Source: an uncultured SAR116 cluster alpha proteobacterium (GTDB taxonomy: Bacteria; Pseudomonadota; Alphaproteobacteria; Puniceispirillales; Puniceispirillaceae). From it: a DNA stretch of 64,000 nt. The position numbers and the translations under genes are program-made. Below, piece by piece: positions 6,839-31,734 of this stretch. The notes under the pieces were generated by a model. The model ran no database searches, was not told where the DNA came from, and saw only the letters and a program-made list of their open reading frames with translations. The DNA lies in NCBI GenBank assembly GCA_902622515.1, contig CACNQE010000006.1, forward strand, positions 62,001-126,000, given 5' to 3'. The number at the start of each line of letters is the position of its first letter. Position 1 is the first letter of the stretch.

Positions 6839-6871
6839 TTATTCATCATTCGTTAAGAAATAATACGGTTT

Positions 6872-8632: not shown

Positions 8633-8640
8633 AAGTAAAC

Positions 8641-9534: not shown

Positions 9535-9614
9535 AATTACTCCCATTTTTAGATTGATACTTTGTTTTCAGACCGCTAAATTGCAAACATAAAAAAAGAT
9601 TCATAATTAATCAA

Positions 9615-9689: not shown

Positions 9690-9825
9690 ACTTTTATAAA
9701 TATTAAATAAATAAATAAGAAATGTTTATCCGGTCTTAAATATTTTTGCCGAGAAAGCCCAAATTTTTCACTAAAAATATTGGTTGATTTTTTCTTCTAA
9801 AACGTGAGAGATTTTATAACGTATT

Positions 9826-10524
9826 TCAAGCCAAACCATAGCCACTTTCTTTAGTTAAAATAAAAGATTCTTGGGTTAATTCTTTAATTTTATGGCGTAG
9901 TCTGTAGATATGTGTTTCCAATGTGTGAGTGGTTAACCCTATATGAAACCCCCATACCTCTTTAAGTAATACATCTTTGTGCACTGGGCTTGGATAGGAA
10001 CGAAATAGAACACTCAGAATTAGCGTTTCTTTTTCTGTTAAGAAAATTTTTTTTGATTTTCCTCTTACTGAGAGAGTTTTATTTTCTGGTATGAACTCAA
10101 TTAAACCTATGAAAAACTTCTCAGGCTCAACTGAGCTGTGTTGCTCATATTGAAATTTAATTCTAGTAAACAATTCACTGAGCCGAATAGGTTTTGTTAT
10201 GTAGTCATTCGCACCTGCATTTAAACTATCTATGCTGTCATTTTCACTGCTATTTTCAACAATCATGATAACTGGCTTTACAAATCCATTTTGACGTAAA
10301 AAACGACAAAATTCTATACCTGATCCGTTTTTTAAGTTTACATCTAATAATAAAATATCTGGTTCAAAAACAGGTATAAATAACTTTGCTTCAACAATAT
10401 TAGTTACAGATTGAAATTCACAAATACCTTTTTGAAGGAGGTGATTGTTGAGAACTTCAGTCAAAAACAAATCATCTTCAATCAGAAGTATCTTTATAGA
10501 AGGTAAAATATATCCAATACTCAT
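9826..10524 (-). CDS. Orphan OmpR-family response regulator with altered switch residue
   Basis: Two domains. The receiver domain (about residues 10-125) has the acidic pocket Glu16-Asp17-Asp18, phospho-acceptor Asp61 (ILLLDVNL) and Lys111 (ITKP). The C-terminal winged helix (about 145-232) has FLTEKETLILSVL and the recognition helix THTLETHIYRLRHKI, so it should bind DNA as a transcription factor. The position normally Thr/Ser at the end of strand 4 is Val89 (PVIMIVEN). No histidine kinase gene is adjacent. ATG 10524 was taken as start; a GTG at 10560 would add 12 residues, and neither has a clear ribosome site. Divergent from ribA. Confidence 0.88.
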   Translation of the reverse strand: MSIGYILPSIKILLIEDDLFLTEVLNNHLLQKGICEFQSVTNIVEAKLFIPVFEPDILLLDVNLKNGSGIEFCRFLRQNGFVKPVIMIVENSSENDSIDSLNAGANDYITKPIRLSELFTRIKFQYEQHSSVEPEKFFIGLIEFIPENKTLSVRGKSKKIFLTEKETLILSVLFRSYPSPVHKDVLLKEVWGFHIGLTTHTLETHIYRLRHKIKELTQESFILTKESGYGLA

Positions 10525-10659
10525 TTTTTTACAAAGACAACCGTTTAAAATATTACCCACTTTACGAAATAGTTACTTTTTATAATAATGATAAAAGACT
10601 ATTACGTATTGTTAAAAATTTAATCTTGTGTTTTCACGTTACAGCAATATATTTAGGTT

Positions 10660-11772
10660 TTGCAATTGACAAATATTTCTCAGAATATTTCAACAAAAAT
10701 TGACGCTTCTCTAGCTGCATTACGGCGTGGCTCGATGGTAATGATACGTGACCAAAAACAGCAGGCTGGATTTGTAAAAGCAGCCGAATTTGCTGATTTT
10801 GAATTACCTAAGTTTCCATATTTAGACCGAATAACTCCTACTTTATGTTTTACCAAAAAACATGTCGAGTTTTTGAGACCCAACATGACATCTGAAAGAC
10901 CAGTTTTTAGTTTACCTGCAAATATGCTCTCACAAGCACAAATTGTAGGGATATCAATTGGTGAGTCACAACTTCTCCCAAAAAATGCAACACTACTTCC
11001 GGAACATAAAAATTCCCTGGCAGATTTGGCTGTGCGAACGGTGAAATTTGCAAAGCTATTACCATCTGCATTATTGTATCGTCTCCCTTCATCAGAGTCT
11101 TATGAGCAGGAACGGCTTTCATCTAACTACCAATTTCCTATATTGGAATTTGCAGACATCTGTAATTTTTCTTCAAATGAGGCATTCTTAACAATTAGCA
11201 TAACAGCTGACTTACCTCTTAAGAGAGCACCTAAGTCAAAAATTATTATGTTTCGAAATAGTAATGGAAAAGAGGAACATTTCGCCATCGTTGTTGGAGA
11301 AGGATTGAGTGCCAAAGAACCGCTAGTAAGGGTGCACTCCCAGTGTCTCACGGGAGATGTGTTAGGTTCTTTAAAATGTGACTGTGGTGACCAACTTGAA
11401 ACAGCTCTTTCAATGATGAGTGAAGGAGGTAATGGAGTAGTTATATATTTAGCACAGGAAGGAAGAGATATTGGTTTGCTGAACAAAATTCGTGCCTATG
11501 CACTCCAAGATGCTGGCCTTGATACCGTTGAAGCAAATCATAGCTTGGGCTTTGAAACTGATGAAAGAGGATTTAAAACAGCAGCTGAAATGTTAAGTTT
11601 GTTGGGACTCAATCAAATTAAATTGCTTACTAATAATCCTGATAAAGTTAAACAATTAAACGCTTATGGAATATTTGTTACCCAAAGATTGCCTCTACAT
11701 CTTCCGACAAATAACCACAACCAAAACTATATGAAAATTAAAAAAGAAAAAACTGGTCATCTTTTGAAGTAA
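10660..11772 (+). CDS. ribA: GTP cyclohydrolase II with degenerate N-terminal domain
   Basis: Opens GTP to the diaminopyrimidine that starts riboflavin synthesis. 370 residues. The C-terminal half carries the whole GTPCH-II domain: VRVHSQCLTGDVLGSLKCDCG supplies the zinc cysteines, then AQEGRDIGLLNKIRAYALQD and the LLTNNPDK block. The first about 180 residues match no functional DHBP synthase motif; such RibBA-like remnants are common in alphaproteobacterial RibA. There is no early ATG. The start must be TTG 10660 or TTG 10666; AGG at 10655-10657 lies 8 bases before the second, favouring 10666. Confidence 0.93.
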   Translation: MQLTNISQNISTKIDASLAALRRGSMVMIRDQKQQAGFVKAAEFADFELPKFPYLDRITPTLCFTKKHVEFLRPNMTSERPVFSLPANMLSQAQIVGISIGESQLLPKNATLLPEHKNSLADLAVRTVKFAKLLPSALLYRLPSSESYEQERLSSNYQFPILEFADICNFSSNEAFLTISITADLPLKRAPKSKIIMFRNSNGKEEHFAIVVGEGLSAKEPLVRVHSQCLTGDVLGSLKCDCGDQLETALSMMSEGGNGVVIYLAQEGRDIGLLNKIRAYALQDAGLDTVEANHSLGFETDERGFKTAAEMLSLLGLNQIKLLTNNPDKVKQLNAYGIFVTQRLPLHLPTNNHNQNYMKIKKEKTGHLLK

Positions 11773-11808
11773 ATCTAAAGCAACAACAAATTAGTTAGGC
11801 TATTTGTT

Positions 11809-12489
11809 TTAGGATGTTCTATCACCGAAAAAAGCAGAGCCCACTCTTATATGCGTGGCACCCAACCGAATTGCATCCTCAAAATCTGCGCTCATACCCA
11901 TAGATAGCGACTGGAGTCCAGCCATTGATGCAAGTTTATTCAAATATGCAAAATGTGGACTAGCATCTTCATTTGCTGGTGGAATACACATAAATCCAAT
12001 AATTGGAAGCGCGTAATCATTAATACACGATTTAGCAAAATCAACTGCAAAATTTGGCTCTATTCCTGATTTTTGAATTTCATAACCAGTATTTACCTGA
12101 ATAAAACAGGGGATCTGTTTATTTTGCTTTTTCATCTCCAAAGATATTAATTTTGCGATTTTTTCCCTATCAATTGTATGAATTACGTCAAAAAGGCTCA
12201 CCGCATCTGCCACTTTATTACTTTGAAGAGAGCCTATAAGATGGAGACATAGGTCCGGATAAAAAGTTTTAAATGGTTGCCATCTAGATAAGGCTTCTTG
12301 AACCTGATTTTCTCCAAAACACCTAAACCCATTATCTAATGATTTTTGGATTCTCTCTGGATTTTGTCTTTTAGATACTGCGATTAATTCTATATCTTTT
12401 CGATTTCTTGATGCCTGGTCACAGGCCTTTTGAATTCTGCCCTCAATTTCAATTTGGTTTGCAGTTATGTTGTGCTTGGTATCTTGCAT
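11809..12489 (-). CDS. YggS/PLPBP-family pyridoxal-phosphate homeostasis protein
   Basis: Alanine-racemase-like TIM barrel that binds PLP without known catalysis and balances the B6 and amino-acid pools. About 226 residues. The PLP lysine is in ELIAVSKRQ; further family blocks are CFGENQVQEA, HLIGSLQSNK, CFIQVNTGYEIQKSG and LSMGMSADFEDAIRLGATHIRVGSAFFG. I chose ATG 12489 because GAGG lies six bases upstream; a longer frame to 12525 has no such signal. Convergent with ribA (36 bases between the stops). Confidence 0.94.
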   Translation of the reverse strand: MQDTKHNITANQIEIEGRIQKACDQASRNRKDIELIAVSKRQNPERIQKSLDNGFRCFGENQVQEALSRWQPFKTFYPDLCLHLIGSLQSNKVADAVSLFDVIHTIDREKIAKLISLEMKKQNKQIPCFIQVNTGYEIQKSGIEPNFAVDFAKSCINDYALPIIGFMCIPPANEDASPHFAYLNKLASMAGLQSLSMGMSADFEDAIRLGATHIRVGSAFFGDRTS

Positions 12490-12636
12490 ATACCACCTCA
12501 AACAAAAATAATTGTTATCCTTCAATACTTAGCTCAATAATACCTCAAATCAAACGCCTCTTCCATATTGCTTTTGTTTTTGTTCCTTATTTAGGACTTC
12601 TTTCAAAAAAAATTGGTTCTTAAAACTGCTACTTTA

Positions 12637-12656
12637 CTGTTGTATATTTACAACAG
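12637..12656. promoter_or_regulatory. Perfect dyad upstream of the porin gene
   Basis: CTGTTGTA (12637-12644), spacer TATT, TACAACAG (12649-12656): an exact 8-bp inverted repeat with a 4-base spacer, 111 bases before the porin start codon. Inside it the TTGTA-N4-TACAA geometry resembles the 5-4-5 spacing of CRP/FNR-family operators, and TGT-N12-ACA also fits. No T-run follows, so it is more likely an operator than a terminator. The binding protein is unknown. Confidence 0.45.
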
Positions 12657-12767
12657 TTTAATTTTTTATTTTAAAAATCGTATACAATTAAATAGTTATC
12701 TGAAAATTTTTCTTTATTTTAGAAAATGGTCAATCCTGGCCAATAAAACGTTTTAATGGAGATCTTT

Positions 12768-13739
12768 ATGCGTAAAATTCTTCTTGCTTCTACAGCTTTG
12801 GTTGCTGTAGCAGGAATTTCTGCAGCATCTGCAGAAATATCATTTTCAGGTAGCGCTGATTTTACTTATACATCAATTTCTGATGACCAAACAGATAACG
12901 CATCAGCTGGTGAAAATGGAACTGACATGACTGCTGACTCACAGTTAGCAGCGTCTTATTCAACAACAACTGACACAGGTCTAGCAATTTCTGTTGCTTA
13001 CGACGTGGACGCTAACTCAGGCGATTGGTCAATTGCTGGTGATTGGGGTACATTCACATTTGATGAGGGCTCTGAGGCCATGGGTACAGGTGCAGGCGAT
13101 GCAGATAGCGTATCTAACATGAGCTTTGGTATGTCACCAACATATGGTGGTGGAAATGGTATTAATGGCGGTGAGATTGCATATAGCAATACTGTTGGAC
13201 CAATTTCATTTGCAATCGGATTTGGCGATGTAGGAACAAGTAGCACAGCTAATGAAACATCATATGGTGCATCTTACTCAGCTTCAGTTAATGGTGCCGA
13301 TGTATCGATTGGTTATGCGGCTGCAAATACTAGTGCTCCTAGCACAACTGCCTCTGCCACAGACGTAAGTGCATCATCAATGAACGTTGGTGTGACAGTG
13401 GGTTCAATCGGAGTAGCTATGGCTCAGAATGCTACAAAAAATGATCGTGTTGATGACAACGCATCTGCTACTGGTTCACAAGATATGAAATCCACTAACT
13501 TTGGCGTGACATATGCTGTATCTGATAGCCTTACACTAGAAGCAGCTTCAATTGCAGCGACAGGAACAATTGCTGGTGATTCAACTTACAAATATGACGA
13601 ATCCGCATATGGCGTTGCATATACAATTGCTTCAGGCCTATCCTTAACAGTGAGCTACTCAGACTTCACACAGTCTGGTGGTGGTCAAACTGATACATCA
13701 GGTTCTGCAACAATGGTAGATTTATCAGTTTCTTTCTAA
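12768..13739 (+). CDS. Outer-membrane porin
   Basis: Beta-barrel channel protein of the outer membrane. 323 residues from ATG 12768, which has GGAG six bases upstream (an in-frame ATG at 12756 overlaps that site). The signal peptide MRKILLASTALVAVAGIS ends ASA before EISFSGSADF, the typical first strand of alphaproteobacterial porins. The mature part alternates short polar turns rich in D, T, S and G with amphipathic strands and ends in VDLSVSF, with the terminal Phe required for barrel assembly. There are no cysteines. A strong terminator follows at once, so it is a monocistronic unit. Substrate unknown. Confidence 0.9.
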   Translation: MRKILLASTALVAVAGISAASAEISFSGSADFTYTSISDDQTDNASAGENGTDMTADSQLAASYSTTTDTGLAISVAYDVDANSGDWSIAGDWGTFTFDEGSEAMGTGAGDADSVSNMSFGMSPTYGGGNGINGGEIAYSNTVGPISFAIGFGDVGTSSTANETSYGASYSASVNGADVSIGYAAANTSAPSTTASATDVSASSMNVGVTVGSIGVAMAQNATKNDRVDDNASATGSQDMKSTNFGVTYAVSDSLTLEAASIAATGTIAGDSTYKYDESAYGVAYTIASGLSLTVSYSDFTQSGGGQTDTSGSATMVDLSVSF

Positions 13740-13762
13740 TTTATTTAGAAAAAACAAAATTT

Positions 13763-13791
13763 AAGGGACCAGTTGTCTGGTCCCTTTTTTT
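13763..13791 (+). terminator. Rho-independent terminator of the porin gene
   Basis: AAGGGACCAG (13763-13772), loop TTGT, CTGGTCCCTT (13777-13786) and a run of T through 13791. The 10-bp perfect stem with GC core starts 24 bases after the porin stop. It is the clearest intrinsic terminator in the window. Confidence 0.93.
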
Positions 13792-13826
13792 ATTGCATAT
13801 TAGGCTTGAAAGGGATACCTACATCA

Positions 13827-14327
13827 ATGCTTAAATACTTACTCATTTTCTCATTAGCTGTGCTAACAGCTTGCTCATCTATGCAGTCAGAAACAAACAC
13901 TTCATCTACAAAAAAAGAGCCTGGAGGTTCATTTATAACGGGCAGAAGCGAACCCGGAGTAACATTAAGTGACTTAACTGGTAACTCAAGAAACGAATTT
14001 GCTGGTATCCCTGTTAATGCATTATTATGGCGGGCTTCTTTGGATATTGCGTCTATCTTGCCCATTGATGACATAGATGTTTTCAGTGGTACAATACTTA
14101 CCGATTGGTATAGTCTACCATCCAATCAAAACGAACAAATTAAACTAGCTATATTTGTTTTAGATAAGGAATTACGCTCAGATGCTATTCGTGTGGTTGT
14201 TTATGTAGAAACTCGTAATGGTGATAATTGGGAAGACAGCGGAATAGATAATGTTTTAGCTACAAAACTAGAGGACCTTATTTTAACGCGGGCACGAGAA
14301 TTACGCGCAACTTCTATTAATCAATAA
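13827..14327 (+). CDS. DUF3576 lipoprotein
   Basis: A small envelope protein of unknown function. ATG 13827 gives MLKYLLIFSLAVLTACSS, a lipoprotein signal with lipobox LTAC. A longer frame from 13773 would begin inside the porin terminator and is rejected. The mature part is about 150 residues, with the conserved WRASLDIASILPIDDID and WYSLP blocks of DUF3576 and an acidic, charged C-terminus. It sits 17 bases upstream of leuS, where DUF3576 genes commonly lie in alphaproteobacteria. Confidence 0.85.
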   Translation: MLKYLLIFSLAVLTACSSMQSETNTSSTKKEPGGSFITGRSEPGVTLSDLTGNSRNEFAGIPVNALLWRASLDIASILPIDDIDVFSGTILTDWYSLPSNQNEQIKLAIFVLDKELRSDAIRVVVYVETRNGDNWEDSGIDNVLATKLEDLILTRARELRATSINQ

Positions 14328-14344
14328 AACATATTTGAAATATC

Positions 14345-16918
14345 ATGACTAATTTTATTCCGTCTCAAATTGAGAAAAAATGGCAAGAAGCATGGGAAAA
14401 TTCCAATTGTTTCAGTGCCAAAGAATTTTCTGAGAAACCGAAATATTACGTTCTTGAAATGTTTCCCTATCCATCTGGACGGATACACATGGGTCACGTG
14501 CGGAATTATACTCTAGGCGACGTAATAGCAAGATTTAAAAGAGCAGAAGGGTTTAATGTTCTCCATCCAATGGGATGGGATGCATTTGGGCTCCCTGCTG
14601 AAAATGCAGCGATAGAAAGAAACACCCACCCTGCCAAATGGACCCAACAAAATATAGCCTCAATGAAAAAACAATTAAAATCTATGGGACTCTCTTACGA
14701 CTGGAATCGTGAAATAGCTACGTGTGATCCTGAATATTTCAAGCATGAGCAATTAATATTCATTAAGTTCCTAGAAAACGGTCTCGCCTACAGAAAAGAA
14801 TCTTGGGTAAACTGGGATCCGGTTGAAAATACTGTTCTTGCAAATGAACAGGTTGTGGATGGGTGTGGATGGCGGTCAGGTGTTCCTGTAGAACGTCGAA
14901 AATTATCACAATGGTTTTTACATATTACTCGCTATGCTGAAGAACTATTGGAAGCCATAAAAACATTAAGTGATTGGCCAGAACGCGTTCGACTAATGCA
15001 GCATAATTGGATTGGACGGTCAGAGGGCGCCCAAATAAAATTTTTTCTGACTGACAATATTGACGATATTACTGATATAGAAGTTTTTACAACACGTCCC
15101 GATACTCTTTTTGGGGCTTCATTTTTAGCTATTTCACCACACCATCCGTTAACGGGGTATCTCTCAAAAATAAATTCCAAGATTTCAGAATTTGTTGCAG
15201 AGTGTGAAAAACTCGGGACATCTGAAGTAGCCCTTGAACAAGCAGAAAAAAAAGGATTTGATACCAAACTATTTGTATATCACCCCTTTGTTAACGGGAA
15301 AAAAATTCCAGTCTATATCGCGAATTTTGTGCTGATGGACTATGGTACAGGAGCCATTTTTGGTTGTCCAGCACACGACCAACGAGACCTTGACTTTGCT
15401 CGCAAATATCATCTCCCTGTAACTGAAGTGGTTTGCCCAGAGAATGAAATTGAAAGTAATTTTTCAATAGGAGATGTTGCTTATACTGGCCCTGGGAAAA
15501 TAATTAATTCCGGTGACTGGAATGGCCTTGATATAGAAACAGCTAAAAAAGTCGCCATTAATGCTATAGAAACTGGTAATTTTGGAACAAAAAAAGTCTC
15601 GTATAGATTGCGAGATTGGGGTGTATCTCGTCAGAGATATTGGGGATGCCCAATACCAATTATTCATTGTTCTAACTGTGGTATTGTTCCCGTTCCACAA
15701 GAAGATTTACCAGTCAAACTCCCAGAAGACGTGCAATTTGACACACCTGGTAACCCGCTTGATATGCATCCAAGATGGAAACATGTAGTATGTCCTAATT
15801 GTGGTTTAAATGCTGAAAGAGAAACGGATACTTTTGACACATTTTTTGAGAGCTCATGGTATTTTTTAAGATTTATAGACCCACATTCAAATATTGCCTT
15901 TGACCCAAAAAGGGCTTCCTATTGGATGCCTGTTGACCAATATATTGGGGGAGTAGAACACGCCGTACTGCATCTTTTATATTCTAGGTTTTTTACAAGA
16001 GCTTTAAGTGATATTGGATATCTTAAGCTAAAAGAACCGTTCTCTGGCTTGATGACACAGGGAATGGTTTGTCATCAATCTTATAAATCAAAAGATAACC
16101 AATGGCTTTTCCCTAGTGAAGTAAAAAAGAAAGGAGGGAAATTCATTTCTATTAATGACAATCTTCCAGTTGAAGTTGGCCGCGTTGAAAAAATGAGTAA
16201 GTCAAAGAAGAATGTAGTTGATCCAGAAGAAATAATTAGTTCTTTTGGCGCTGACACAGCACGATTGTTCATGCTTTCTGATTCTCCCCCGGATAGAGAC
16301 CTTGAATGGACAGAGGCAGGCGTTGAAGGTTCATTTCGATTTATAAATAAGATTTTTAAATTAACAATAAACCCTCCCACAAAACCAAAATTAAGACTTA
16401 ACAGAATTGACATTAAAGATTTATCCCCAGAAAATTTAGAATTGCTCAGAACATCTCACCGCTCAGTCCAAATTATAGGAGATAATATAAAGCGTTTTTC
16501 TTTTAATAAATGTGTTGCTCAACTTCATATCTTAGTTAATTCCATAACATCATTTACGCATGAAGGGGAAGTGGGAGAACGTGTAAAGCATCATGTTTTA
16601 GAACTCCTTGCACAAGCGTTGGCTCCTTTTACTCCACATATAGCTGAAGAACTGTGGTCAACTTTGGGAAATTCAGAATTTGTTTGCTCATCACCATGGC
16701 CAGATATATTCGAAGACCTTCTTATTGATGATACCGTTGAAATAGCTATACAAATAAATGGCAAAGTAAGAGCTAAGCTTAGACTACCTCTAGATTTACC
16801 AAAAGAGGAAGCAGAGGCTGCAGCCCTCTCGTGTGAAGAAGTAAAAAAGTATATGTCTGGAAAAGAAATCAAAAGAATTATAGTGGTACCAAACAGGATT
16901 GTTAACGTTGTTGGGTAA
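14345..16918 (+). CDS. leuS: Leucyl-tRNA synthetase
   Basis: Class I aminoacyl-tRNA synthetase charging tRNA-Leu; cytoplasmic. 857 residues, normal bacterial length. HIGH-type motif HMGH at 48-51 and KMSKS at 616-620. The CP1 editing domain (about 225-415) carries the [13 protein letters not shown] block and the catalytic aspartate region [18 protein letters not shown]-terminal anticodon-binding domain ends in the [11 protein letters not shown] segment. lptE overlaps the end of this gene by 20 bases, suggesting translational coupling. Confidence 0.98.
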
Positions 16919-17408
16919 AAATATTCACTTTATATTAATATTTTTAATAACCTTACTTTTGTCGGGATGTATTCGGACTGCAGGAATTAATAGTGATTTA
17001 ATTGCTAAAAACAAGCTATCCCAAATAACCCCAAATAGTCCAACATCCCATTTAGAATATTTATTTTACGAAGAGTTTAACCGAACTGTGAGAAGCTCGA
17101 CCAATAATAATGCTTATAAACTTGACTATTCTCTAAAGGTATCCAATACGCAGACACTCACTATAAGTCAAAATTCTTCTAATTTGGAATATACAGATGT
17201 TACGGTCATTTTTAAAGTAATTGATAATAATACTGGAGCGGTTATACATAAAGGAAAAATTAGTTCTGAGGCTACTTCTGGCGCTGTTGCTAGTTTATAT
17301 GGACAATCTCAGTCTAGTAAATTTTCACGTGAGCGTTTGGCTGTTCTATTGGCACAGCGTGTTTATCAAAACCTGTATTTGTATTTTTTAGAAAATGTAA
17401 CCCAATAG
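16899..17408 (+). CDS. lptE: LPS-assembly lipoprotein LptE
   Basis: Outer-membrane lipoprotein expected to plug and support LptD in lipopolysaccharide export. About 165-169 residues. The signal [14 protein letters not shown] has a lipobox ending at Cys. The body contains the serine/threonine-rich beta strands typical of the family ([13 protein letters not shown]) and the ARVLLAQ-like helix ([16 protein letters not shown]). Family identity rests mainly on the conserved place between leuS and holA plus this shape; sequence conservation is low. Start is TTG 16899 or another TTG at 16908 or 16911, all overlapping leuS. Confidence 0.83.
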
Positions 17409-17420
17409 TGTCATAATCTT

Positions 17421-18452
17421 ATGAAAATCTTACCTAGAGACATAGCATCGCTGTTTGGAAAACCAAATAAGAAATTCTTTGCCTATTTGTTGCATGGTAT
17501 GGATGCTGGCTTGATTGATGAACGCGCCAAAGAACTAGCATTACTCTTTTCAGATAATTTAAATGATCCTTTTTCTGTTACCAGATTAACAGGAAAAGAA
17601 GTGCAGGTGGACCCCGCGTTATTGGCAGATGCTTTAAATGCATTGACATTAGTTGGAAAGATGCGGGTTGTACTTCTAAGTGGAACAGTAACAGAACTCG
17701 TATCTGCTATTAAGTCAAATATTGAATATTTACATTCTGAATGTAGATTGATTGTCTCTGCTAAAGACAGCACGAACAAACATAGTCTTGTAACTTTGTG
17801 CGACAAACATCCGAATATTGCCTCTGTTGCATGTTATCCAGATGAAGGTGAAAAACGAAAAAAACTGATATATGAAACCTTAAGTCAAAATGACATTGAT
17901 ATTTCAAGTCACCTTATAGAATACATTTCAAATAAACTTGGAAATGATCGCTCTATTAATAGAAACGAAATCGAAAAAATTACTTTATATGCAGCGAAAA
18001 CAAAATCTATAAATAAAGAGGAAATAGATTTTGTTTTGGGGGATAATAGTTTACCGATATTAGATAAATTAATTGATAATGTATTCAAAGGAAAAACAGA
18101 AACAATTGGTCCTTTGTTAACAAAAATTCGGGCAGAAGGAATACAACCTGTTGCAATAACGAGATATTTTCAATCTCATGTCAAAATTCTTATCACAATC
18201 AGTGCTCAAAAACAAAAAGGATTAACTGTACAAACTGCAGTAAATAACATACGACCGCCAATTTACTTTAAACGCAAACAATCTGTTATTGATCATAGCA
18301 AAATTTTTTCTATGAAAGGGTGTTCTTCGCTAATGGAAAGATTTATGCAATTAGAAGGACAATGCAAAATGGGTTCAAATCCTAATCCTTATAGTTTAAT
18401 TGGTCAGTCCTTATTAGGTGTTGCTATTAAGTTATCTAGTCACCGAATTTGA
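17421..18452 (+). CDS. holA: DNA polymerase III delta subunit
   Basis: Clamp-loader subunit that opens the beta sliding clamp. 343 residues, normal length. The N-terminal block FAYLLHGMDAGLIDERAKEL resembles the family's LxGxDxxLI start; a degenerate AAA+ fold and a C-terminal helical collar domain (EGIQPVAITRYFQSHVKIL) follow. It lies 12 bases after lptE. Its 3' end overlaps the convergent parB gene by 13 bases (18440-18452), so transcription of the two collides. Confidence 0.92.
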   Translation: MKILPRDIASLFGKPNKKFFAYLLHGMDAGLIDERAKELALLFSDNLNDPFSVTRLTGKEVQVDPALLADALNALTLVGKMRVVLLSGTVTELVSAIKSNIEYLHSECRLIVSAKDSTNKHSLVTLCDKHPNIASVACYPDEGEKRKKLIYETLSQNDIDISSHLIEYISNKLGNDRSINRNEIEKITLYAAKTKSINKEEIDFVLGDNSLPILDKLIDNVFKGKTETIGPLLTKIRAEGIQPVAITRYFQSHVKILITISAQKQKGLTVQTAVNNIRPPIYFKRKQSVIDHSKIFSMKGCSSLMERFMQLEGQCKMGSNPNPYSLIGQSLLGVAIKLSSHRI

Positions 18453-19393
18453 ACCCCTATTCTTTCTAATATTGAGTCAAACTGTTCAATAGATGAGACA
18501 GACAACTTAATGCTACCTGTCTCTGTTTTTGAATTCCAAGAAATATTTGCTTTAAGGCCAATTCGTTGTTCAATTTTTTCTTCTAATTTTCGATTTTCAA
18601 CGTCTATATTTTCATTTTGCATTTGTAATTTTTCGTTAAATTTATTTTTTGGCTTTAATAGTTTTTCAACTTCACGCGCTGTTAAATTTTGCTTGATTAT
18701 TAATTCTGCCAATTTATCAATATCGACATGTCCAATTATTGGCCGTATCTGCCCGACAGATACTGTACCTTTTTCTAACGCGGACTGAACCCATTCAGGC
18801 AAGGTTAATAAACGTAACAAATTTGCTATATGTGGCCTAGACTTTCCAATCACTGTTGATAATGTTTGTTGCGTATAACCAAATGTTTGAATCAGTTGTT
18901 GATATCCTAACGCTTCTTCAATTGGGGTTAAATCACGCCTTTGAATATTTTCAACAAGTGCTATTTCTGCAGCCTCTTGCTCAGAAAATTCTCTCACTAT
19001 TGCAGGAATTTCATAAAGTTTCGCTATTTGAGCTGCGCGCCATCTTCGCTCACCTGCAATTAATTCATATTTATTTTCTTTTCCTGAAGTAGAGCGAACC
19101 AAAACTGGCTGTATAACCCCTTGTTTTGAAAGGGATTTTGCCAAATCTTCTAATTGCATTTTGTCAAAATTTCGCCTTGGTTGCCACGGTCCAGAAGTAA
19201 TCCATTCTATTGGAATATTTTTAACGGTAGTGGTATTTGTATTTGATGGTTTAGTTTTTGATATGTTGTTTTTCTTATTTGAAATAGGACGCTCTTGTAA
19301 TAAATCGCGTACTTCAGCATCACCTAATAGAGTGGACAAGCCACGACCGAGCCCTCGCTGAACCTTTTTTTTCTTATTTGATGACTTTGTCAT
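18440..19393 (-). CDS. parB: Chromosome-partitioning protein ParB
   Basis: CTP-dependent DNA clamp that loads at parS and spreads, organising the origin region for segregation. 317 residues. The RGLGRGLSTLLGD start is the ParA-interacting segment. The CTPase core has GERRWRA at 114-120 and ENIQRRDLTPIEEA; the helix-turn-helix follows at about 150-180 (IGKSRPHIANLLRLLTLPE); a C-terminal dimer domain ends the chain. Two perfect parS sites are in the window (20734-20749, 24391-24406). The start codon overlaps the parA stop by 4 bases, so the two are coupled. Confidence 0.97.
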   Translation of the reverse strand: MTKSSNKKKKVQRGLGRGLSTLLGDAEVRDLLQERPISNKKNNISKTKPSNTNTTTVKNIPIEWITSGPWQPRRNFDKMQLEDLAKSLSKQGVIQPVLVRSTSGKENKYELIAGERRWRAAQIAKLYEIPAIVREFSEQEAAEIALVENIQRRDLTPIEEALGYQQLIQTFGYTQQTLSTVIGKSRPHIANLLRLLTLPEWVQSALEKGTVSVGQIRPIIGHVDIDKLAELIIKQNLTAREVEKLLKPKNKFNEKLQMQNENIDVENRKLEEKIEQRIGLKANISWNSKTETGSIKLSVSSIEQFDSILERIGVQIR

Positions 19394-20163
19394 AAACTAA
19401 CGTTCTCCTGTTGTAATAACTCTGCTGCTAATGATGTGTATGCCTTAGAACCAGAACAATTAATATCATACATCAGAACAGGTTGGCCAAATGATGGGGC
19501 CTCTGATATACGTACGTTTCGTGGTATGATAGTTTGATACACTTGCTTACCAAAATGCTTTCTAACATCATTCACAACCATTTCTGATAAATTATTCCTG
19601 CTATCAAACATGGTTAAAACGATACCCTGTATTGTTAAACTTGGGTTTAGATTTTTCTTTACCATTTCTATGGACCTCAAAAGTTGGGCCAGACCTTCAA
19701 GTGCGTAAAACTCACATTGGAGTGGTACTAATACAGAATGTGAAGCTGAAAAAGCGTTTACCGTAAGCAATCCAAGAGATGGTGGACAATCTATAATAAC
19801 AAAATCATAAGAGTCTGTAATAGGTCTAAGAAGCATATCTAATATGAATTCTCTGTTTTTTCTGTTTCTTAACTCAACTTCAGCGGCGGCAAGATCGGTG
19901 TCAGAAGGTATAACAGATAATCTTGGGACTATTGATGACTTTATCGCGTCTTCAATTGATATTTGATTAATGAGCAAATGATAAATATGTGTATTTCTTT
20001 CTATATTATCAATTCCAAAGCCTGTGCTTGCATTACCTTGAGGATCTAAATCAATTAACAAGACACTTTTATCACACGCAGCAATCGCTGTTGCTAAATT
20101 AACTGCCGTAGTGGTTTTGCCGACGCCCCCTTTTTGATTTGCTATAGATATTATCCTAGACAT
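19390..20163 (-). CDS. parA: Chromosome-partitioning ATPase ParA
   Basis: Deviant Walker ATPase whose DNA-bound gradient moves ParB-parS complexes to the new pole. 257 residues. The P-loop KGGVGKTTTAVNLA has the signature lysine; the Walker A' motif is LLIDLDPQGNAS and the Walker B FVIIDCPPSLG. It starts 9 bases after the rsmG stop and overlaps parB by 4 bases, within the minus-strand run mnmG-rsmG-parA-parB. Confidence 0.97.
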   Translation of the reverse strand: MSRIISIANQKGGVGKTTTAVNLATAIAACDKSVLLIDLDPQGNASTGFGIDNIERNTHIYHLLINQISIEDAIKSSIVPRLSVIPSDTDLAAAEVELRNRKNREFILDMLLRPITDSYDFVIIDCPPSLGLLTVNAFSASHSVLVPLQCEFYALEGLAQLLRSIEMVKKNLNPSLTIQGIVLTMFDSRNNLSEMVVNDVRKHFGKQVYQTIIPRNVRISEAPSFGQPVLMYDINCSGSKAYTSLAAELLQQENVSL

Positions 20164-20172: not shown

Positions 20173-20787
20173 TTATAATGCATCCTTAAATTGCAGTTCT
20201 AGAACACAACCATCTTCAGATGTAATTGATGCATACTTATTCGTTACACGTAGTTTCTTCCATGTATTTATATTAATCAACTCAGAATTTACATCCCTAC
20301 CTTTCAAAAGTAGAAAACGCAATTCTGGATGGTGCTGTTTTTCCGTTAATTTAAGTAGTCTTGGAATAGGTGCAAATGCGCGGGCGATTATGATATCTGG
20401 AGCTAATGTTTGCATTTCTTCCATGCGTGTCTCATGGATGATTGTATTTAATTTTATCCGAGATATTACCGTTCTTAAAAAAGCACATTTTCGTTGGTCT
20501 GATTCTACGAGGTGTACCCTATGATCAGTTAAAATTGAAACTATGATACCGGGTAATCCTGCGCCAGAACCAACATCGAGTATACAGCACGGCCCGTTAG
20601 GAAGAAAACTGTAAAGCTGTGCGCAATCAAGAATATGTCTTTCCCAGATGTTTTCTATCGTTTTTGGTGAAATAAGGTTTAATCTTTTTTGCCACTTTAT
20701 AAGCAAATCATGATAAGTTTTAAGCTGAGACAATGTTTCACGTGAAACATTGTATTTATTTTTCAACAAAGAAAAGGAATCTATCAT
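20173..20787 (-). CDS. rsmG: 16S rRNA (guanine-527-N7)-methyltransferase RsmG, containing parS
   Basis: Methylates G527 of 16S rRNA with SAM; formerly GidB. 204 residues. SAM-binding motif ILDVGSGAGLPGI at about residue 72, plus the N-terminal LLIKWQKRLNLISPKT block. Residues 13-19 (NVSRETL) are encoded by a perfect parS palindrome, as is common in alphaproteobacterial rsmG genes. It lies 11 bases after mnmG. Confidence 0.96.
   Translation of the reverse strand: MIDSFSLLKNKYNVSRETLSQLKTYHDLLIKWQKRLNLISPKTIENIWERHILDCAQLYSFLPNGPCCILDVGSGAGLPGIIVSILTDHRVHLVESDQRKCAFLRTVISRIKLNTIIHETRMEEMQTLAPDIIIARAFAPIPRLLKLTEKQHHPELRFLLLKGRDVNSELININTWKKLRVTNKYASITSEDGCVLELQFKDAL
20734..20749. other. parS: parS site 1 (ParB centromere) inside rsmG
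   Basis: TGTTTCACGTGAAACA, the exact consensus chromosomal parS, extended by three flanking bases on each side to a 22-bp perfect palindrome (20731-20752). It lies 6.8 kb from the proposed oriC and about 570 bases upstream of parA. Confidence 0.97.
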
Positions 20788-22799: not shown

Positions 22800-24200
22800 T
22801 CATTTCCCAATACAAAAACTTGAAAAAATATTATCGAGCAGATCATCAACGCCCACTTGACCAGTAAGACGCCCAAGTGCATTACATGCAAGGCGCAATT
22901 CCTCTGCTACTATTTCCGGATGTTCTTTGCTGTTAAGCTTAATAGCACGCTCCAGGGCATTACATACGGTAAGACAAGCTGTTTTATGCCAGGAACGAGT
23001 TAACCTTACATCGGTGTTTGTGACATTAATAAAAGACATTAATTCGATCAGCTTTTTAATTAAAAGGTCTTGCCCACTCTTATTGTGAAAACTAACAATC
23101 AATGGATTTGATGTTCTTAATAGGGATGATTTACAACACTTAATTTTTTTCTTTATTTCATCCTCAGACAAAAGATCTGCTTTGTTCAACAATACCAGCT
23201 GTTTCGAGAATTTCCAACTCTCAAATAGTGATAGCGTTTTTTCCCAATCTAAACTAGATGAATCCAAAACCAACAAAGCAAGATCTGAACTCTCGGCCAC
23301 ACTTTTAGCTCTATCAATTCCCTCGATCTCAATAACGTCTTCGGTTTTCCTTGTGCCTGCGGTATCGTTTAATATCACAGAAATGCCCCCCAAGTCTAAT
23401 TTCACTTCTATTACATCCCGAGTCGTGCCTGCAACAGAAGACACGATTGCAACTTCTCTTTGTGCTAATGCGTTTAGAATTGTTGATTTGCCTGCATTTA
23501 CTGGGCCTACCAATGCAATTTTTACACCTTCTCGTATTTGTTCAGAATATTTACTATCCTCTACTAAACTCAGAATCTGATTTTTTAAATTATACATGTT
23601 TAAAGATAATTCTTCGATAATCTCTTCAGGTAATTCTTCATCGGAAAAATCAATCACTGCTTCAAGTTTTGAGGACAATGAAATCAAAGTCTCTCTATAT
23701 GATTTTAATCGAGCAGAAAGTTTTCCTGTCATTATGTTAATCGCTTGTTGATGTTGGCATAGTGTTTGCGCCTCAATCAAGTCTGAAAGACCCTCTAAAT
23801 CTATTAGTCCAACCTTACCATTGTTGAAGGACCTACGAGAAAATTCTCCTTGTTGCGCTGGTCTCATCCCCTCTATTTCGGCAAGGCTATATAAAATTGA
23901 CTGAATAACAGCCGGACTTCCATGACATTGAATCTCTGTTATATTTTCACCTGTTGGGGAGGATTTAGAGGGGAACAAAACCAACATGACATCATCAATA
24001 ATTAGACCTTCCGCTGTCTTAAGACGACGGAATTCGGCAATAGGTTTATCCTCAACAATCGAATTTAAAACACCAAAATGTGTTAATACACCGTGCGCTT
24101 TAGGACCAGATATTCTTATAATTGCTATAGCGGATTGACCCGGTGGGGTTGCTAAAGCATAAATAGTATCGTTAACACTCACCAAACCACCTTTTGACAA
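22800..24200 (-). CDS. mnmE: tRNA modification GTPase MnmE
   Basis: GTPase partner of MnmG in wobble-uridine modification. 466 residues. The N-terminal formyl-THF-binding domain begins NDTIYALATPPGQSAIAIIR. The G domain has G1 GPVNAGKST, G2 AGTTRDV, G3 DTAGTRKTED and G4 NKAD. The chain ends in FCIGK, the invariant C-terminal Cys-x-Gly-Lys. In G1 a valine replaces the more usual proline (GPVNAGKS for GPPNAGKS). The N-terminal codons face the divergent methyltransferase gene. Confidence 0.97.
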   Translation of the reverse strand: MSKGGLVSVNDTIYALATPPGQSAIAIIRISGPKAHGVLTHFGVLNSIVEDKPIAEFRRLKTAEGLIIDDVMLVLFPSKSSPTGENITEIQCHGSPAVIQSILYSLAEIEGMRPAQQGEFSRRSFNNGKVGLIDLEGLSDLIEAQTLCQHQQAINIMTGKLSARLKSYRETLISLSSKLEAVIDFSDEELPEEIIEELSLNMYNLKNQILSLVEDSKYSEQIREGVKIALVGPVNAGKSTILNALAQREVAIVSSVAGTTRDVIEVKLDLGGISVILNDTAGTRKTEDVIEIEGIDRAKSVAESSDLALLVLDSSSLDWEKTLSLFESWKFSKQLVLLNKADLLSEDEIKKKIKCCKSSLLRTSNPLIVSFHNKSGQDLLIKKLIELMSFINVTNTDVRLTRSWHKTACLTVCNALERAIKLNSKEHPEIVAEELRLACNALGRLTGQVGVDDLLDNIFSSFCIGK

Positions 24201-24265
24201 ATCTTATTGCGAACATATTATTTATGAGGCTCATTAACATCTCTTTAACTAATTGGAAACAAATA

Positions 24266-24763
24266 ATGTGTGTATTAAAAACGAACTTAGGATATTTTCA
24301 ACCTGTAGCATCTAATATGGGATTAAAAGAATTAAAATGGCAACAAATGCCATTTTCCGAAAAACAACTTTTACACAAGTCAAACAAAAATGTTTCACGT
24401 GAAACATTAAATCAAATAGAATTATACCTATTGGGCTCTCTGCAAAAATTTTCTATACCTTTAGACTTTTCCAATTGGTCTCCGAAGATGGTGCAATGGT
24501 TCACAACAATTTCTAAAGTGGAGTACGGTAAAACTATTTCTTATAAAGAACTCGCTTATGAATGGGGAAACGTTAGAGCGTCTAGGGCGGCCGGCGATGC
24601 TTGTAAACGAAACCCAATACCTATCATTATTCCTTGTCACCGTATTTTAAATATTAATGGTAAAATAGGCTGCTATAGTGGCGGAAATCGTAACACACCT
24701 AATAGCAGAAAGAATATAAACCGCAAACGTTGGCTAATTGAATTAGAGAAAACTATTAACTAG
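24266..24763 (+). CDS. Methylated-DNA-[protein]-cysteine S-methyltransferase-like protein, containing parS
   Basis: Suicide repair protein that takes alkyl groups from O6-alkylguanine. The C-terminal domain has [19 protein letters not shown], the arginine-finger region [17 protein letters not shown], and active-site PCHR with Cys124. Residues 42-48 (NVSRETL) are encoded by a perfect parS site, so a centromere element lies in its weakly conserved N-terminal domain. ATG 24266 is taken as start because GGAAA lies about 7 bases upstream; TTG 24194 and ATG 24224 are alternatives. It is the only plus-strand gene in the run between parB and the origin, and its end overlaps rho by 4 bases. Confidence 0.85.
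24391..24406. other. parS: parS site 2 (ParB centromere) inside the methyltransferase gene
   Basis: TGTTTCACGTGAAACA, identical to site 1, extended by two flanking bases on each side (24389-24408). It lies 3.2 kb from the proposed oriC. An exact 16-bp match of this palindrome is not expected by chance in 64 kb. Confidence 0.96.
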
Positions 24764-26101: not shown

Positions 26102-26530
26102 CTAAAATGGCTCTGCTACGGCTAATATTACTATAACTATCATAGCCAGCGTCGGCGCTTCATTCCAATATCTATAATATTTATCTGGTTTAGCTATTTG
26201 GTCATTTTCAAATTCTTTTCTTATGCGACCAAATTTCATGTGGCAATAAGTCATAAAAATCACGCAAATAATTTTCGCTATCATCCAATTTTCCGTGAGT
26301 AAACTTGGGTTTAGGAAAATTAAATACAATCCTAGGAGCCAGCTTATTAACATCGCTGGATTCATAATTATTTTCAAAAGACGCCGTTCCATCAATTTAA
26401 AAGTTTGAGAACGAACGGATCCAATTTCAACTAATGAATGGTATACGTATAGTCTAGGCAAATATAGTAAGCCAGCCATCCAAGCTATTATAGCTATAAT
26501 ATGAAATGATTTAACTATTTGATATTCCAT
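26102..26530 (-). CDS. hemJ: Protoporphyrinogen oxidase HemJ
   Basis: Small integral membrane protein converting protoporphyrinogen IX to protoporphyrin IX in haem synthesis. 142 residues with about four hydrophobic segments. The first segment has the conserved histidine and arginine of the family (SFHIIAIIAWMAGLLYLPRLYVYH region); a second conserved KFGRIRKEFE-type loop lies mid-chain. Its start overlaps hemE by 20 bases, coupling the two haem genes. HemJ often lies between hemE and rho in alphaproteobacteria. Confidence 0.92.
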   Translation of the reverse strand: MEYQIVKSFHIIAIIAWMAGLLYLPRLYVYHSLVEIGSVRSQTFKLMERRLLKIIMNPAMLISWLLGLYLIFLNPSLLTENWMIAKIICVIFMTYCHMKFGRIRKEFENDQIAKPDKYYRYWNEAPTLAMIVIVILAVAEPF

Positions 26531-27566
26531 AATTTTTTTCTCTAATATAGGAAATGATGTCTGTTAAATTTTGTTGTGATGTTGCTGGTAAGATACCATG
26601 TCCTAGGTTGAAGATATAGGGTCTATCAGAAATTAAGTTAAGTAAGTAATCTACTTCTCTTTTTAATATATTACCGCCATGAACTAAACAAATCGGATCT
26701 ATATTTCCTTGAACAGCAATATTTTTAGGAATTGATCTGTGAACAAATTCCATGTCCGTAAGGTGATCAACAGCAATACAGTTTGGGTTAATAATATCTG
26801 CAAACTCCACAATACCCTCACCCATAGATTTTGGAAAACATATTATAGGTATCGATGCATTTTTAGCCCTTACATATTGAACTATTTTCTTTGTTGGTCC
26901 GTAGATAAATTTATTGCGAAATCTAGCTGGTATAGATCCAGCCCAACTATCAAATAGCATTATTGCGTTAACACCCGCATCCAACTGTATCTCTAAAAAA
27001 CAAGTTATAGCTTGGACTAAAATTTCGAATACTTCTTCGGAACGATTGGTGTTTGACCATAAAAATTTTCTCGCATTGGAAAAGTCTTTGGATGATTGCC
27101 CCTCCGTTAAATATGTAAATAATGTCCATGGAGATCCAGAAAAACCAATTATAGGTATGTTTCTACTGTTAACATTTTTATTTAATTTAGTTCTGCTCAA
27201 TTTAATAGCTTCCCCAACAGGGGCTAAATCTGATTTGAATTTTCTCCAGTCATTAAAGGTAATTCTTTCTCCCAAATTTAGCTTTTTTAATTTTGGACCT
27301 TCATTCTCGATAAAAGATACTTTGAAGTCTAGCATATGCAGAACTAACAAAATATCAGAAAAAATTATAGCGGCATCTAGATTAAATTTTTTGATAGGCT
27401 GACAAGTTACTTCGCTCGCTTTTTCAGCATTTAAACAAAAATCAATAAAATTTAACTCGGTATTTCTTAAACGTCTATACTCAGGTAAATATCTACCCGC
27501 TTGTCTCATTATCCAAATAGGTGGTTGAGAAGCAATCTTACCATTTAATGTGTTTAAAAAATTCAT
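26511..27566 (-). CDS. hemE: Uroporphyrinogen decarboxylase
   Basis: Decarboxylates uroporphyrinogen III to coproporphyrinogen III in haem synthesis. 351 residues. Substrate-binding block PPIWIMRQAGRYLPEYR (residues 15-31), with DAAIIFSDILL and GFSGSPWTLFTYL further on, and the C-terminal NLGHGILPAT. It is the first gene left of the proposed oriC, transcribed away from it. hemH, often present between hemE and hemJ in related genomes, is absent here. Confidence 0.97.
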   Translation of the reverse strand: MNFLNTLNGKIASQPPIWIMRQAGRYLPEYRRLRNTELNFIDFCLNAEKASEVTCQPIKKFNLDAAIIFSDILLVLHMLDFKVSFIENEGPKLKKLNLGERITFNDWRKFKSDLAPVGEAIKLSRTKLNKNVNSRNIPIIGFSGSPWTLFTYLTEGQSSKDFSNARKFLWSNTNRSEEVFEILVQAITCFLEIQLDAGVNAIMLFDSWAGSIPARFRNKFIYGPTKKIVQYVRAKNASIPIICFPKSMGEGIVEFADIINPNCIAVDHLTDMEFVHRSIPKNIAVQGNIDPICLVHGGNILKREVDYLLNLISDRPYIFNLGHGILPATSQQNLTDIISYIREKNYGISNS

Positions 27567-27647
27567 TTATGTCTAAAAAGTTATATATAATATATATTGA
27601 TATAGATGTAGTTTGTTTAATTAACATTAAAAACAAGCAAAGCAAAG

Positions 27648-27656
27648 TTTTCCACA
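27648..27656 (+). promoter_or_regulatory. DnaA box
   Basis: TTTTCCACA, an exact match to TTWTNCACA and one base from TTATCCACA. It lies on the hemE-proximal side of the proposed oriC. Confidence 0.7.
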
Positions 27657-27775
27657 AGATAATAATACCTAGTACGCAATATTTGTTTTATAAAACTCAA
27701 TTTAAACAATACTTTAAAAATTAAAAAAAAATAATCAACATTTAACCATAATAAAGTACGTACTTATACAGTTAA

Positions 27776-27790
27776 TTAATTAGCTTTTAA
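27776..27790. promoter_or_regulatory. CtrA-like site TTAA-N7-TTAA
   Basis: TTAA at 27776-27779 and 27787-27790 are separated by exactly seven bases, the CtrA full-site pattern. In Caulobacter, CtrA at such sites blocks initiation. In sequence this AT-rich the pattern has an appreciable chance of arising randomly (about one in four for the region by rough estimate), so support is weak. Confidence 0.3.
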
Positions 27791-27795
27791 AAATC

Positions 27796-27804
27796 TGTGT
27801 AAAA
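27796..27804 (-). promoter_or_regulatory. DnaA box
   Basis: TTTTACACA on the minus strand, exact match to TTWTNCACA. It lies 6 bases from the CtrA-like site, an arrangement that would allow competition if both are real. Confidence 0.65.
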
Positions 27805-27841
27805 ATTGTATGTTTTTATTTTTGTCTTAAGTTTTTAATAA

Positions 27842-27850
27842 TTATTCACA
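27842..27850 (+). promoter_or_regulatory. DnaA box
   Basis: TTATTCACA, exact match to TTWTNCACA, 88 bases before ppsR. Confidence 0.7.
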
Positions 27851-27867
27851 GGTAAAAGATAATTATC

Positions 27868-27876
27868 TGTGTACAA
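27868..27876 (-). promoter_or_regulatory. Weak DnaA box (one mismatch)
   Basis: TTGTACACA on the minus strand; only position 3 departs from TTWTNCACA. It lies 17 bases from, and facing, the box at 27842-27850. Confidence 0.45.
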
Positions 27877-27937
27877 AAAAAAAATTATGAAGAAAATATA
27901 ATAGTTAAAGTTTCTTTTCTTCTTAGACGGGCTGAAA

Positions 27938-28771
27938 ATGGCAAAAAAAAATGATTTACATTTACATTTAATATCTGATTCAACAGGTGAAACAGTACAT
28001 CAATTTGCACGAGCTGGACTGGCTCAGTTCCCAGACACGAACATCACGGAACATATCTGGACGCTCGTTAGAAACAAAGCACATATAGATGCTATAGAGC
28101 GCAACTTAGAAAAAAACCCGGGTGTTGTATTATTTTCAGTAGTTAACAAAGAAGTTAGAGAACTGTTAGAAACTTTATGTACGAGACGAGGTATACCAAA
28201 TTTATCAATTTTGGACTCTGTTGTAGATCTTTTCACCAATGTTCTAGGTGTAGAACAGAGTTTAAGGTCGGGAGCTCAACATAAATTAGACACAGCTTAC
28301 TTTAAGCGCATGGCAGCAGTAGAATATGCTGTTGTTCACGATGATGGATTAAACATAGAAAGATTAGATGATGCTGATATGTTGCTTGTTGGTGTTTCTA
28401 GAACCTCAAAAACACCGACATCTATGTATTTGGGTCACAGAGGCTTTAAAGTAGCCAATTATGCTCTCGTACCGGGCGTACCATTTCCAATTGACAAATT
28501 ACCAGAAAAAAATATTTTTATAGTTGGTTTAACTACTGATCCCAAAAGGCTAATGCAAGTCAGAAAAACGCGTCTTCAGCATTTATCTAATTCAAGCAAT
28601 CCAAATTATGCCGATTTAGATATCATTACCAATGAGGTGAGAAATGCCAGGAAATTATTTAGTAAACATAATTGGCCTATCATAGATGTTTCTCGCCGCT
28701 CAGTTGAAGAAATAGCAGCATCAATAATATATTTATATCGTCAGTGGTTGGATCAAAGAGATAATGTATAA
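27938..28771 (+). CDS. ppsR: Pyruvate-phosphate dikinase / PEP synthase regulatory protein (DUF299)
   Basis: Bifunctional ADP-dependent kinase and pyrophosphorylase that switches PPDK or PEP synthase off and on by threonine phosphorylation. 277 residues. The N-terminal LHLISDSTGETVHQFARAG and the P-loop-like GVSRTSKTPTSMYLGHRG with VANYALVPGVPFP are the family signatures. The target enzyme gene is not in the window. It is the first gene right of the proposed oriC and corresponds to the RP001-type gene beside the Caulobacter and Rickettsia origins. The stop overlaps maf by 8 bases. Confidence 0.94.
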   Translation: MAKKNDLHLHLISDSTGETVHQFARAGLAQFPDTNITEHIWTLVRNKAHIDAIERNLEKNPGVVLFSVVNKEVRELLETLCTRRGIPNLSILDSVVDLFTNVLGVEQSLRSGAQHKLDTAYFKRMAAVEYAVVHDDGLNIERLDDADMLLVGVSRTSKTPTSMYLGHRGFKVANYALVPGVPFPIDKLPEKNIFIVGLTTDPKRLMQVRKTRLQHLSNSSNPNYADLDIITNEVRNARKLFSKHNWPIIDVSRRSVEEIAASIIYLYRQWLDQRDNV

Positions 28772-30704: not shown

Positions 30705-31166
30705 TTATTTACTCTCCTCTTGCTTTGCTTTTAGGTTGGCTTTAAATACAGCCACAAAATCAATAGGTTGCAGGTTTAGTGGTAAAAAACCACCCTCTCT
30801 TGTTACCGTAGCTATTGTTGCCCGAGCAAACGGAAACAAAAGTCTTGGGCCTTCAATCATAACAAAAGCATTTTTATCATTTTCGGGAACACCAGTCAAA
30901 CTCGCTATACCACCATAACTTAGTTCAATTAAAAAGAGAGGTTCTGTGTTAACATTAGCCTTTGCGTTAAGGTTAAGTATGATTTCGTATCGGTCATCTT
31001 CAAGTGAACTTGCTCCTACATTTACACTTACCTCAACATCTGGTTGTCCAGTTTGTTGCGTGAATACGCTTGAAGCTCTTGGGTTTTCAAAAGATAAATC
31101 TTTTATATACTGTGCATGCATTGTCAAAGAAGGTGTGGTTTTGGTTGCACTCTCTTTTTTAGACAT
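30705..31166 (-). CDS. secB: Protein-export chaperone SecB
   Basis: Tetrameric cytoplasmic chaperone that keeps preproteins unfolded and delivers them to SecA. About 153 residues. Conserved blocks YIKDLSFENPRA near the N-terminus, LFLIELSYGGIASL and the C-terminal GPRLLFPFARATIATVTREGGFLPLNLQPIDF. ATG 31166 is chosen: GGAG lies about 8 bases upstream, while the ATG at 31178 overlaps that site. Confidence 0.97.
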   Translation of the reverse strand: MSKKESATKTTPSLTMHAQYIKDLSFENPRASSVFTQQTGQPDVEVSVNVGASSLEDDRYEIILNLNAKANVNTEPLFLIELSYGGIASLTGVPENDKNAFVMIEGPRLLFPFARATIATVTREGGFLPLNLQPIDFVAVFKANLKAKQEESK

Positions 31167-31254
31167 AATTCGCTCCATATAAAAAAATTATAATAAACAT
31201 TAACATATTGCAAAAACATGCGTTCATATATGCCAGTGAACAATATTTAAATAT

Positions 31255-31734
31255 TTATTTTTCTTTATAGTCACCATCAATTATAATATTACGAGTGTTT
31301 TTTCCTGTATCATCAGTGTAATGGAAGTCATTCCCATGTTTTTTTCTTAAATTAGTAAAAAACCTGTGGTCAGCAAAATTTGCGATAACAATACTTCCAA
31401 TGTAGATTCTTAGTATAGGAACCATACAGATTATTCCAATCAAGTCAGTGAAATAGCCAGGTATTATCAAAAGTATACCACCAAACAAAATAGATACCCC
31501 CTCTGCAAACCTAGATAGGCCAAACGTTTCTAATTGATATTCCGATTGCCAGGTTGAAAATACTTTTTTATTGAGTAGTCTTATAAGAAAAATTCCTAGG
31601 AACGCCGTGAGGAACAATCCGAGGAAACTTAGCAAACCACCAATTATATTGCCTACAAATAATAAGGTCTCGAATTCTATCCAACCATAGATAATAAAAC
31701 CTAAAAGTAATATAAATACATTTGGTTTGCGCAT
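31255..31734 (-). CDS. fxsA: FxsA-family membrane protein
   Basis: Inner-membrane protein of the FxsA family, named for suppression of F exclusion of phage T7; its cellular role is unclear. 159 residues with hydrophobic segments at about 7-20, 28-52 and 78-110, and a hydrophilic C-terminal tail. The conserved family part is FAEGVSILFGGILLIIPGYFTDLIG. It lies beside secB, a frequent placement near the alphaproteobacterial origin. Confidence 0.9.
   Translation of the reverse strand: MRKPNVFILLLGFIIYGWIEFETLLFVGNIIGGLLSFLGLFLTAFLGIFLIRLLNKKVFSTWQSEYQLETFGLSRFAEGVSILFGGILLIIPGYFTDLIGIICMVPILRIYIGSIVIANFADHRFFTNLRKKHGNDFHYTDDTGKNTRNIIIDGDYKEK

Follow-up and report, generated by a model that had tools for sequence, protein, structure and literature searches.

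Predicted chromosome replication origin in the hemE-ppsR gap of a SAR116 bacterium

Where does chromosome replication start in the SAR116 clade? No description of a SAR116 origin was found in the literature, as judged by title. In other alphaproteobacteria, the gap between hemE and a COG1806 gene is the experimentally identified origin of Caulobacter and the predicted origin of Rickettsia, according to the available part of PMC1914354. The window analyzed here, a stretch of 64,000 nucleotides (C6:62001-126000), contains such a gap. It belongs to the 133-kb contig C6 of a 2.11-Mb draft SAR116 genome in 39 contigs (G000). A first-pass annotation, made from the letters alone, had called this gap a probable chromosomal origin. 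The call is now supported by the concurrence of the skew minimum, parS sites, parAB, enrichment of DnaA boxes across the family, and conservation of the flanking genes. We estimate a probability of about 95% that the gap at 27567-27937 is the replication origin of this chromosome. The evidence is strong that it is very probably an ordinary alphaproteobacterial hemE-COG1806 origin, newly placed in a SAR116-clade genome. The call is sound yet largely expected, since the same gene address is already known in other alphaproteobacteria.

The gap, its DnaA boxes and the partition locus

The gap and its flanks contain the following features.

26511..27566, minus strand: hemE, left flank (NCBIfam TIGR01464, 334.9 bits against a cut-off of 302.95)
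27567..27937, no strand: predicted oriC, the hemE-ppsR intergenic gap, from the skew minimum, the box cluster and the skew of relatives
27648..27656, plus strand: predicted DnaA box TTTTCCACA, exact match to TTWTNCACA; G006 and G004 have TTTTCCACA at a similar position, G003 has TTTTTCACA
27678..27737, no strand: the 60-base stretch of lowest G+C in the gap (6 of 60), a candidate unwinding element
27776..27790, no strand: the one TTAA-N7-TTAA match of CtrA type, a motif without enrichment in the family and here probably due to chance
27796..27804, minus strand: predicted DnaA box TTTTACACA, exact match to TTWTNCACA; the same in G002 and G006, TTATACACA in G004
27842..27850, plus strand: predicted DnaA box TTATTCACA, the best conserved, TTATYCACA in 6 of 6 aligned genus members
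27868..27876, minus strand: near-match box TTGTACACA, two differences from TTATCCACA
27938..28771, plus strand: right flank, ppsR of the 'RP001' type (COG1806/DUF299), with 299.6 bits on NCBIfam NF003742 (cut-off 225)

The gap is 371 bases long and lies between the start of hemE at 27566 on the minus strand and that of ppsR at 27938 on the plus strand. Its G+C content is 0.20, as first read (about 20%), compared with 30-42% in 2-kb stretches of the window. The COG1806/DUF299 protein is presumably PpsR. Its gene scores below the cut-off of NF049928, the narrower equivalog, and is 96% identical in SAR116 cluster alpha proteobacterium AG-894-M09. A further ppsR-like gene, distant at 33% identity, is found at G002:C241:3023-3793; the contamination of that genome is 7%, and the contig is perhaps a contaminant.

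Conservation was followed in 39 family genomes that are at least 80% complete. A ppsR match is found in 36 of them, and 30 gaps are delimited by hemE and ppsR. The divergent hemE and COG1806 (ppsR) flanks of an alphaproteobacterial hemE-COG1806 origin are thus present in the window and in 30 of the 36 genomes. The remaining six (G001, G002, G028, G030, G032 and G041), where hemE was not found and the gap could not be delimited, are left out of the 30-gap counts. One gap that was kept, L049, is much longer than the others (674 bases) and may be wrongly delimited. Loci L016-L018 duplicate genomes already counted.

The three exact boxes and the single near match reported by the first-pass annotation are all present. 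In dinucleotide shuffles of the gap, the mean number of exact boxes is 0.087, in agreement with the earlier estimate of fewer than 0.1 in 371 bases, and none of 5000 shuffles reached three. The family gaps behave similarly, with 57 exact boxes in 30 gaps against 2.3 in shuffles and at least one box in 26. A box cluster above chance, as expected of a hemE-COG1806 origin, is seen in the window gap, and boxes are enriched in the family gaps. No exact match stands at the place of box 27796 in G003 and G008. In G004 and G008, a plus-strand TTATCCACA starts 22 bases after the preceding box and adjoins the place of 27868. The four gaps that have no exact box are those of G015, L038, L053 and L132.

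DnaA boxes are not common across the window, since nine exact matches are found against 11.0 expected from shuffles; three of the nine lie inside the gap. The whole genome has 239 exact boxes in 2.11 Mb against 217 for a reversed control pattern, and a clear genome-wide excess is absent. Clustering was checked for 128 of the 239 boxes, namely those on C6 and C9 (215 of 2111 kb) and 100 on C1-C4. The gap is the sole cluster of three boxes within 371 bases on C6 (17 sites) and C9 (11 sites), and no other was seen by eye among the matches listed, 100 of the 239, all on C1-C4.

Other elements in the gap are few. One imperfect 18-mer pair bears boxes 27796 and 27868. Thirteen AT-rich inverted pairs were taken for chance, and the palindrome AAGTACGTACTT at 27754-27765 was set aside, as it is not conserved in the genus alignment. 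No RNA gene was found in the gap at Rfam gathering scores; the only match in the window is a tRNA at 9615.

A partition locus stands to the left of hemE.

18440..19393, minus strand: parB (TIGR00180, 177.6 bits against a cut-off of 58.45)
19390..20163, minus strand: parA-like partition ATPase adjoining parB; the best NCBIfam matches, to ParA-type ATPases, do not reach the cut-offs
20734..20749 (C6:82734-82749), no strand: perfect parS TGTTTCACGTGAAACA by sequence match, inside the ORF 20173-20787
24391..24406 (C6:86391-86406), no strand: perfect parS TGTTTCACGTGAAACA by sequence match, inside the ORF 24194-24763

Allowing up to two mismatches, exactly two parS sites are present in the genome. 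Both are perfect, both stand beside parAB (18440-20163), and they are separated from the gap by 3.2 and 6.8 kb. We take the ORF 20173-20787 to be rsmG. At both sites, the parS-bearing ORF encodes the peptide NVSRET. With up to one mismatch, all sites in G006, G010, G019 and G025 are within 9 kb of ppsR. The chromosome G015:C1 carries 18 perfect parS-type 16-mers, of which eight fall within 9 kb of ppsR and ten are spread around the chromosome. Each of the five other genomes searched has only two to three sites.

From this arrangement, a course of initiation can be proposed. DnaA would bind the boxes at 27648, 27796 and 27842, and weakly the one at 27868. It may then melt the very AT-rich stretch at about 27678-27737, from which two forks would depart bidirectionally. 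Segregation of the new origins would then fall to ParB, bound at the parS sites at a distance of 3-7 kb.

GC skew and the alternatives

A cumulative GC-skew check had been proposed along with the first call. It was run on the contig, and over 215 of the 2111 kb of the genome in all. The minimum of C6 is at window position 27769, inside the gap, with or without the first 2 kb of the contig, and three relatives agree within about 50 bases. The whole-contig minimum of G006 falls about 50 bases within hemE (C4:126196); the left side there is only 34 kb long, and the skew declines little along it. For G019, the 1.42-1.62 Mb stretch has its lowest value at 1491844, about 47 bases into ppsR. The 1.68-1.88 Mb stretch of G015 reaches its minimum at 1808564, inside the gap, yet this gap is one of those with no exact box. 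The hemE-ppsR gap of these three SAR116-family chromosomes is thus at or adjoining the skew minimum, as in the window genome, and a skew switch at the gap is a further feature shared with alphaproteobacterial hemE-COG1806 origins.

G019 and G015 are single-contig chromosomes and were sampled by twenty 10-kb segments each, with the terminus placed after the signs were seen. Nine of ten samples on the left are negative and ten of ten on the right are positive in G019; the corresponding counts in G015 are eight and nine of ten. In both, the sampled sign change is seen at the scale of the chromosome. Skew arises partly from gene orientation, and a divergent gene pair favors a local minimum, so the exact base of the minimum is not to be over-read. 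The first-pass annotation had also described genes mainly on the minus strand to the left and mainly on the plus strand to the right. This holds close to the gap, where eight of nine genes from parB to hemE are minus and the following four, from ppsR to dnaQ, are plus. It fails across the whole window, where most of the region 5210-18452 is on the plus strand and the ORFs at 30705-31734 are on the minus strand.

In many bacteria, the origin lies at dnaA-dnaN, and the hemE-ppsR gap could then be merely a divergent promoter regulated by DnaA. A skew switch at dnaA-dnaN had been named beforehand as the result that would speak against the present call, and what is seen there is merely a shallow local dip in three of four genomes. 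The dnaA gene is on C9 beside two ORFs that we take to be dnaN and recF. A local dip lies about 2 kb from dnaA. The dips near dnaA in G006 and G019 are shallow, of about 230 and about 80 units, respectively, and G015 has none. In G006, G015 and G019, cumulative skew over the contig or 200-kb stretch is lowest at hemE-ppsR. The same is seen when C9 is reversed and placed after C6, a join order suggested by G006: the minimum remains at 27769 and the dnaA dip, of about 300 units, is far above it. Two exact DnaA boxes within 371 bases are contained in the dnaA gene itself (from C9:62852), whereas none of the intergenic gaps of C9 has an exact box. In five relatives (G006, G010, G015, G019 and G025), dnaA and ppsR are 67-86 kb apart. 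On the skew in the three relatives and the C6-C9 join, dnaA-dnaN was rejected as the origin, and we regard such an arrangement as exceedingly improbable.

It is also very improbable that the gap serves solely as an AT-rich divergent promoter, with the boxes and the skew as by-products. The gap presumably does carry the promoters of hemE and ppsR as well, and gene orientation accounts for part of the skew signal. Sigma-70-like sites are nevertheless no commoner than chance (4 against 4.8 in shuffles of 27400-28100). Chance does not explain the box cluster either (0 of 5000 shuffles), and the skew changes sign at the megabase scale in the two relatives that were sampled.

Comparison with known alphaproteobacterial origins

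An origin between hemE and ppsR can be compared with Cori of Caulobacter crescentus, with which the window gap shares both flanking genes, the AT-rich gap and the presence of DnaA boxes (available text of PMC1914354). The hemE/RP001-type interval had been put forward as a known oriC; this stands for the flanks, which match those of Caulobacter as described in that text, whereas the CtrA and G-box sites of Caulobacter, and an IHF motif of E. coli type, are not enriched here. Cori has five TTAA-N7-TTAA sites (PMC1914354, in the part available). In the 30 SAR116 gaps, this motif occurs twice against 2.1 expected, one of the two being in the window gap, and TTAACCAT also occurs twice against 1.2 expected. 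Neither motif is enriched, and CtrA control at the gap was rejected on these counts. An IHF motif, in an E. coli-type consensus rather than the Cori sequence of PMC4285127, occurs once in 30 gaps against 1.8 expected and not in the window gap.

The consensus of the G-box (TGATCCACA) and W-box (TCCCCA) was taken from the accessible part of PMC4285127. The G-box, a Cori feature, is absent from all 30 family gaps. The W-box is found 46 times in 23 of the 30 gaps, and not in the five gaps of the window's genus. The G-box and W-box pattern of a Caulobacter-type (CtrA-regulated) origin is therefore not seen here. The DnaA boxes of the SAR116 gaps are of the E. coli type (TTATCCACA-like), which is a further difference from Cori.

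The available text of PMC1914354 also describes two predicted origins. That of Rickettsia prowazekii has hemE and COG1806 flanks, as here. That of Wolbachia resembles the window gap in its hemE flank, three DnaA boxes and 70-79% A+T, and differs in that a COG1253 gene replaces COG1806. CtrA and IHF sites are reported there for most Wolbachia strains, whereas CtrA motifs and the E. coli-type IHF motif are unenriched in the SAR116 gaps.

GANTC sites, CcrM and CtrA

The pattern of GANTC, the methylation site of CcrM, is the only part of the analysis that would surprise a specialist. The accessible part of PMC3973325 reports an over-representation of GANTC between the genes of orders that carry CcrM, and several GANTC sites in the Caulobacter origin. 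In the 30 family gaps, only 5 are found against 28.4 expected from dinucleotides (ratio 0.18), and 26 gaps have none. The ratio is 0.70 for 165 intergenic gaps elsewhere in four family genomes and 0.45 in the flanking coding sequence of the same loci. A cruder intergenic count gives 86 against 146 expected (0.59), and 8 against 22 on C6 alone. Relative to 0.70, the depletion has a P value of 8.6e-5 with genomes treated as independent, and of about 0.03 with one mean value for each of eight genera. The window's genus alone is uninformative (1 against 2.1 expected). The depletion is strongest for GANTC yet not unique, since TCNGA (0.49, P 0.0014) and CTNAG (0.42, P 0.015), two of seven further gapped palindromes, have low ratios as well. 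It rests on one clade, and the signal is weak to modest once relatedness is considered.

The hemE-ppsR gaps of ten loci outside SAR116, most of them under Hyphomicrobiales-type names, contain 45 GANTC against 15.8 expected, and only GANTC stands out; these gaps are not all independent, since three are labelled Rhodoplanes piscinae. They are ten of 14 such loci. L019 and L020, where hemE was not found, and the SAR11 gaps L030 and L031 (no GANTC, 0.1-0.2 expected) were left out.

Loss of the enzyme does not explain the depletion, since CcrM is matched in 37 of the 39 family genomes, two of the matches being partial. The window genome has GcrA and a full-length CcrM match, whose 589 bits fall short of the Caulobacter-specific cut-off of 830. 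This ccrM gene (C6:61772-62815, minus strand) extends across the left border of the window, where it occupies positions 1-815, and ccrM and ppsR are 27-32 kb apart in all 12 family genomes that have both on one contig.

A match to the CtrA model at E <= 1e-45 is found in 28 of the 39 genomes. None exceeds the 350-bit cut-off; the scores are mostly 222-246 bits, and the next lower match is at 157. The name CtrA is provisional for these proteins, since E. coli and other control genomes also pass the threshold. No match at this threshold is found in G000, G001, G002, G006, G008 and six other genomes; incomplete assembly could explain some of these cases. The four OmpR-type regulators of the window genome (G000) score at most 139 bits on the CtrA model, and the best one is PhoB-like. 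In the window's genus, the model is matched in G003 (partially) and G004. Across its seven members, CcrM is matched in all and the CtrA model is missing in five.

One reading of this pattern is that SAR116 origins have been purged of GANTC, although the genomes keep CcrM and other alphaproteobacteria keep GANTC-rich origins. Initiation would then rely solely on DnaA, without coupling to CcrM methylation or to CtrA, and CtrA itself may have been lost in the window's lineage. We consider this reading tentative and rather unlikely, because intergenic GANTC is also low on C6 and the window's genus alone is uninformative. If the lack of GANTC and CtrA sites holds, control by methylation and CtrA at the origin would not be general in alphaproteobacteria. 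The predicted location of the origin in this marine lineage would provide an anchor for estimates of replication rate from metagenomic read depth.
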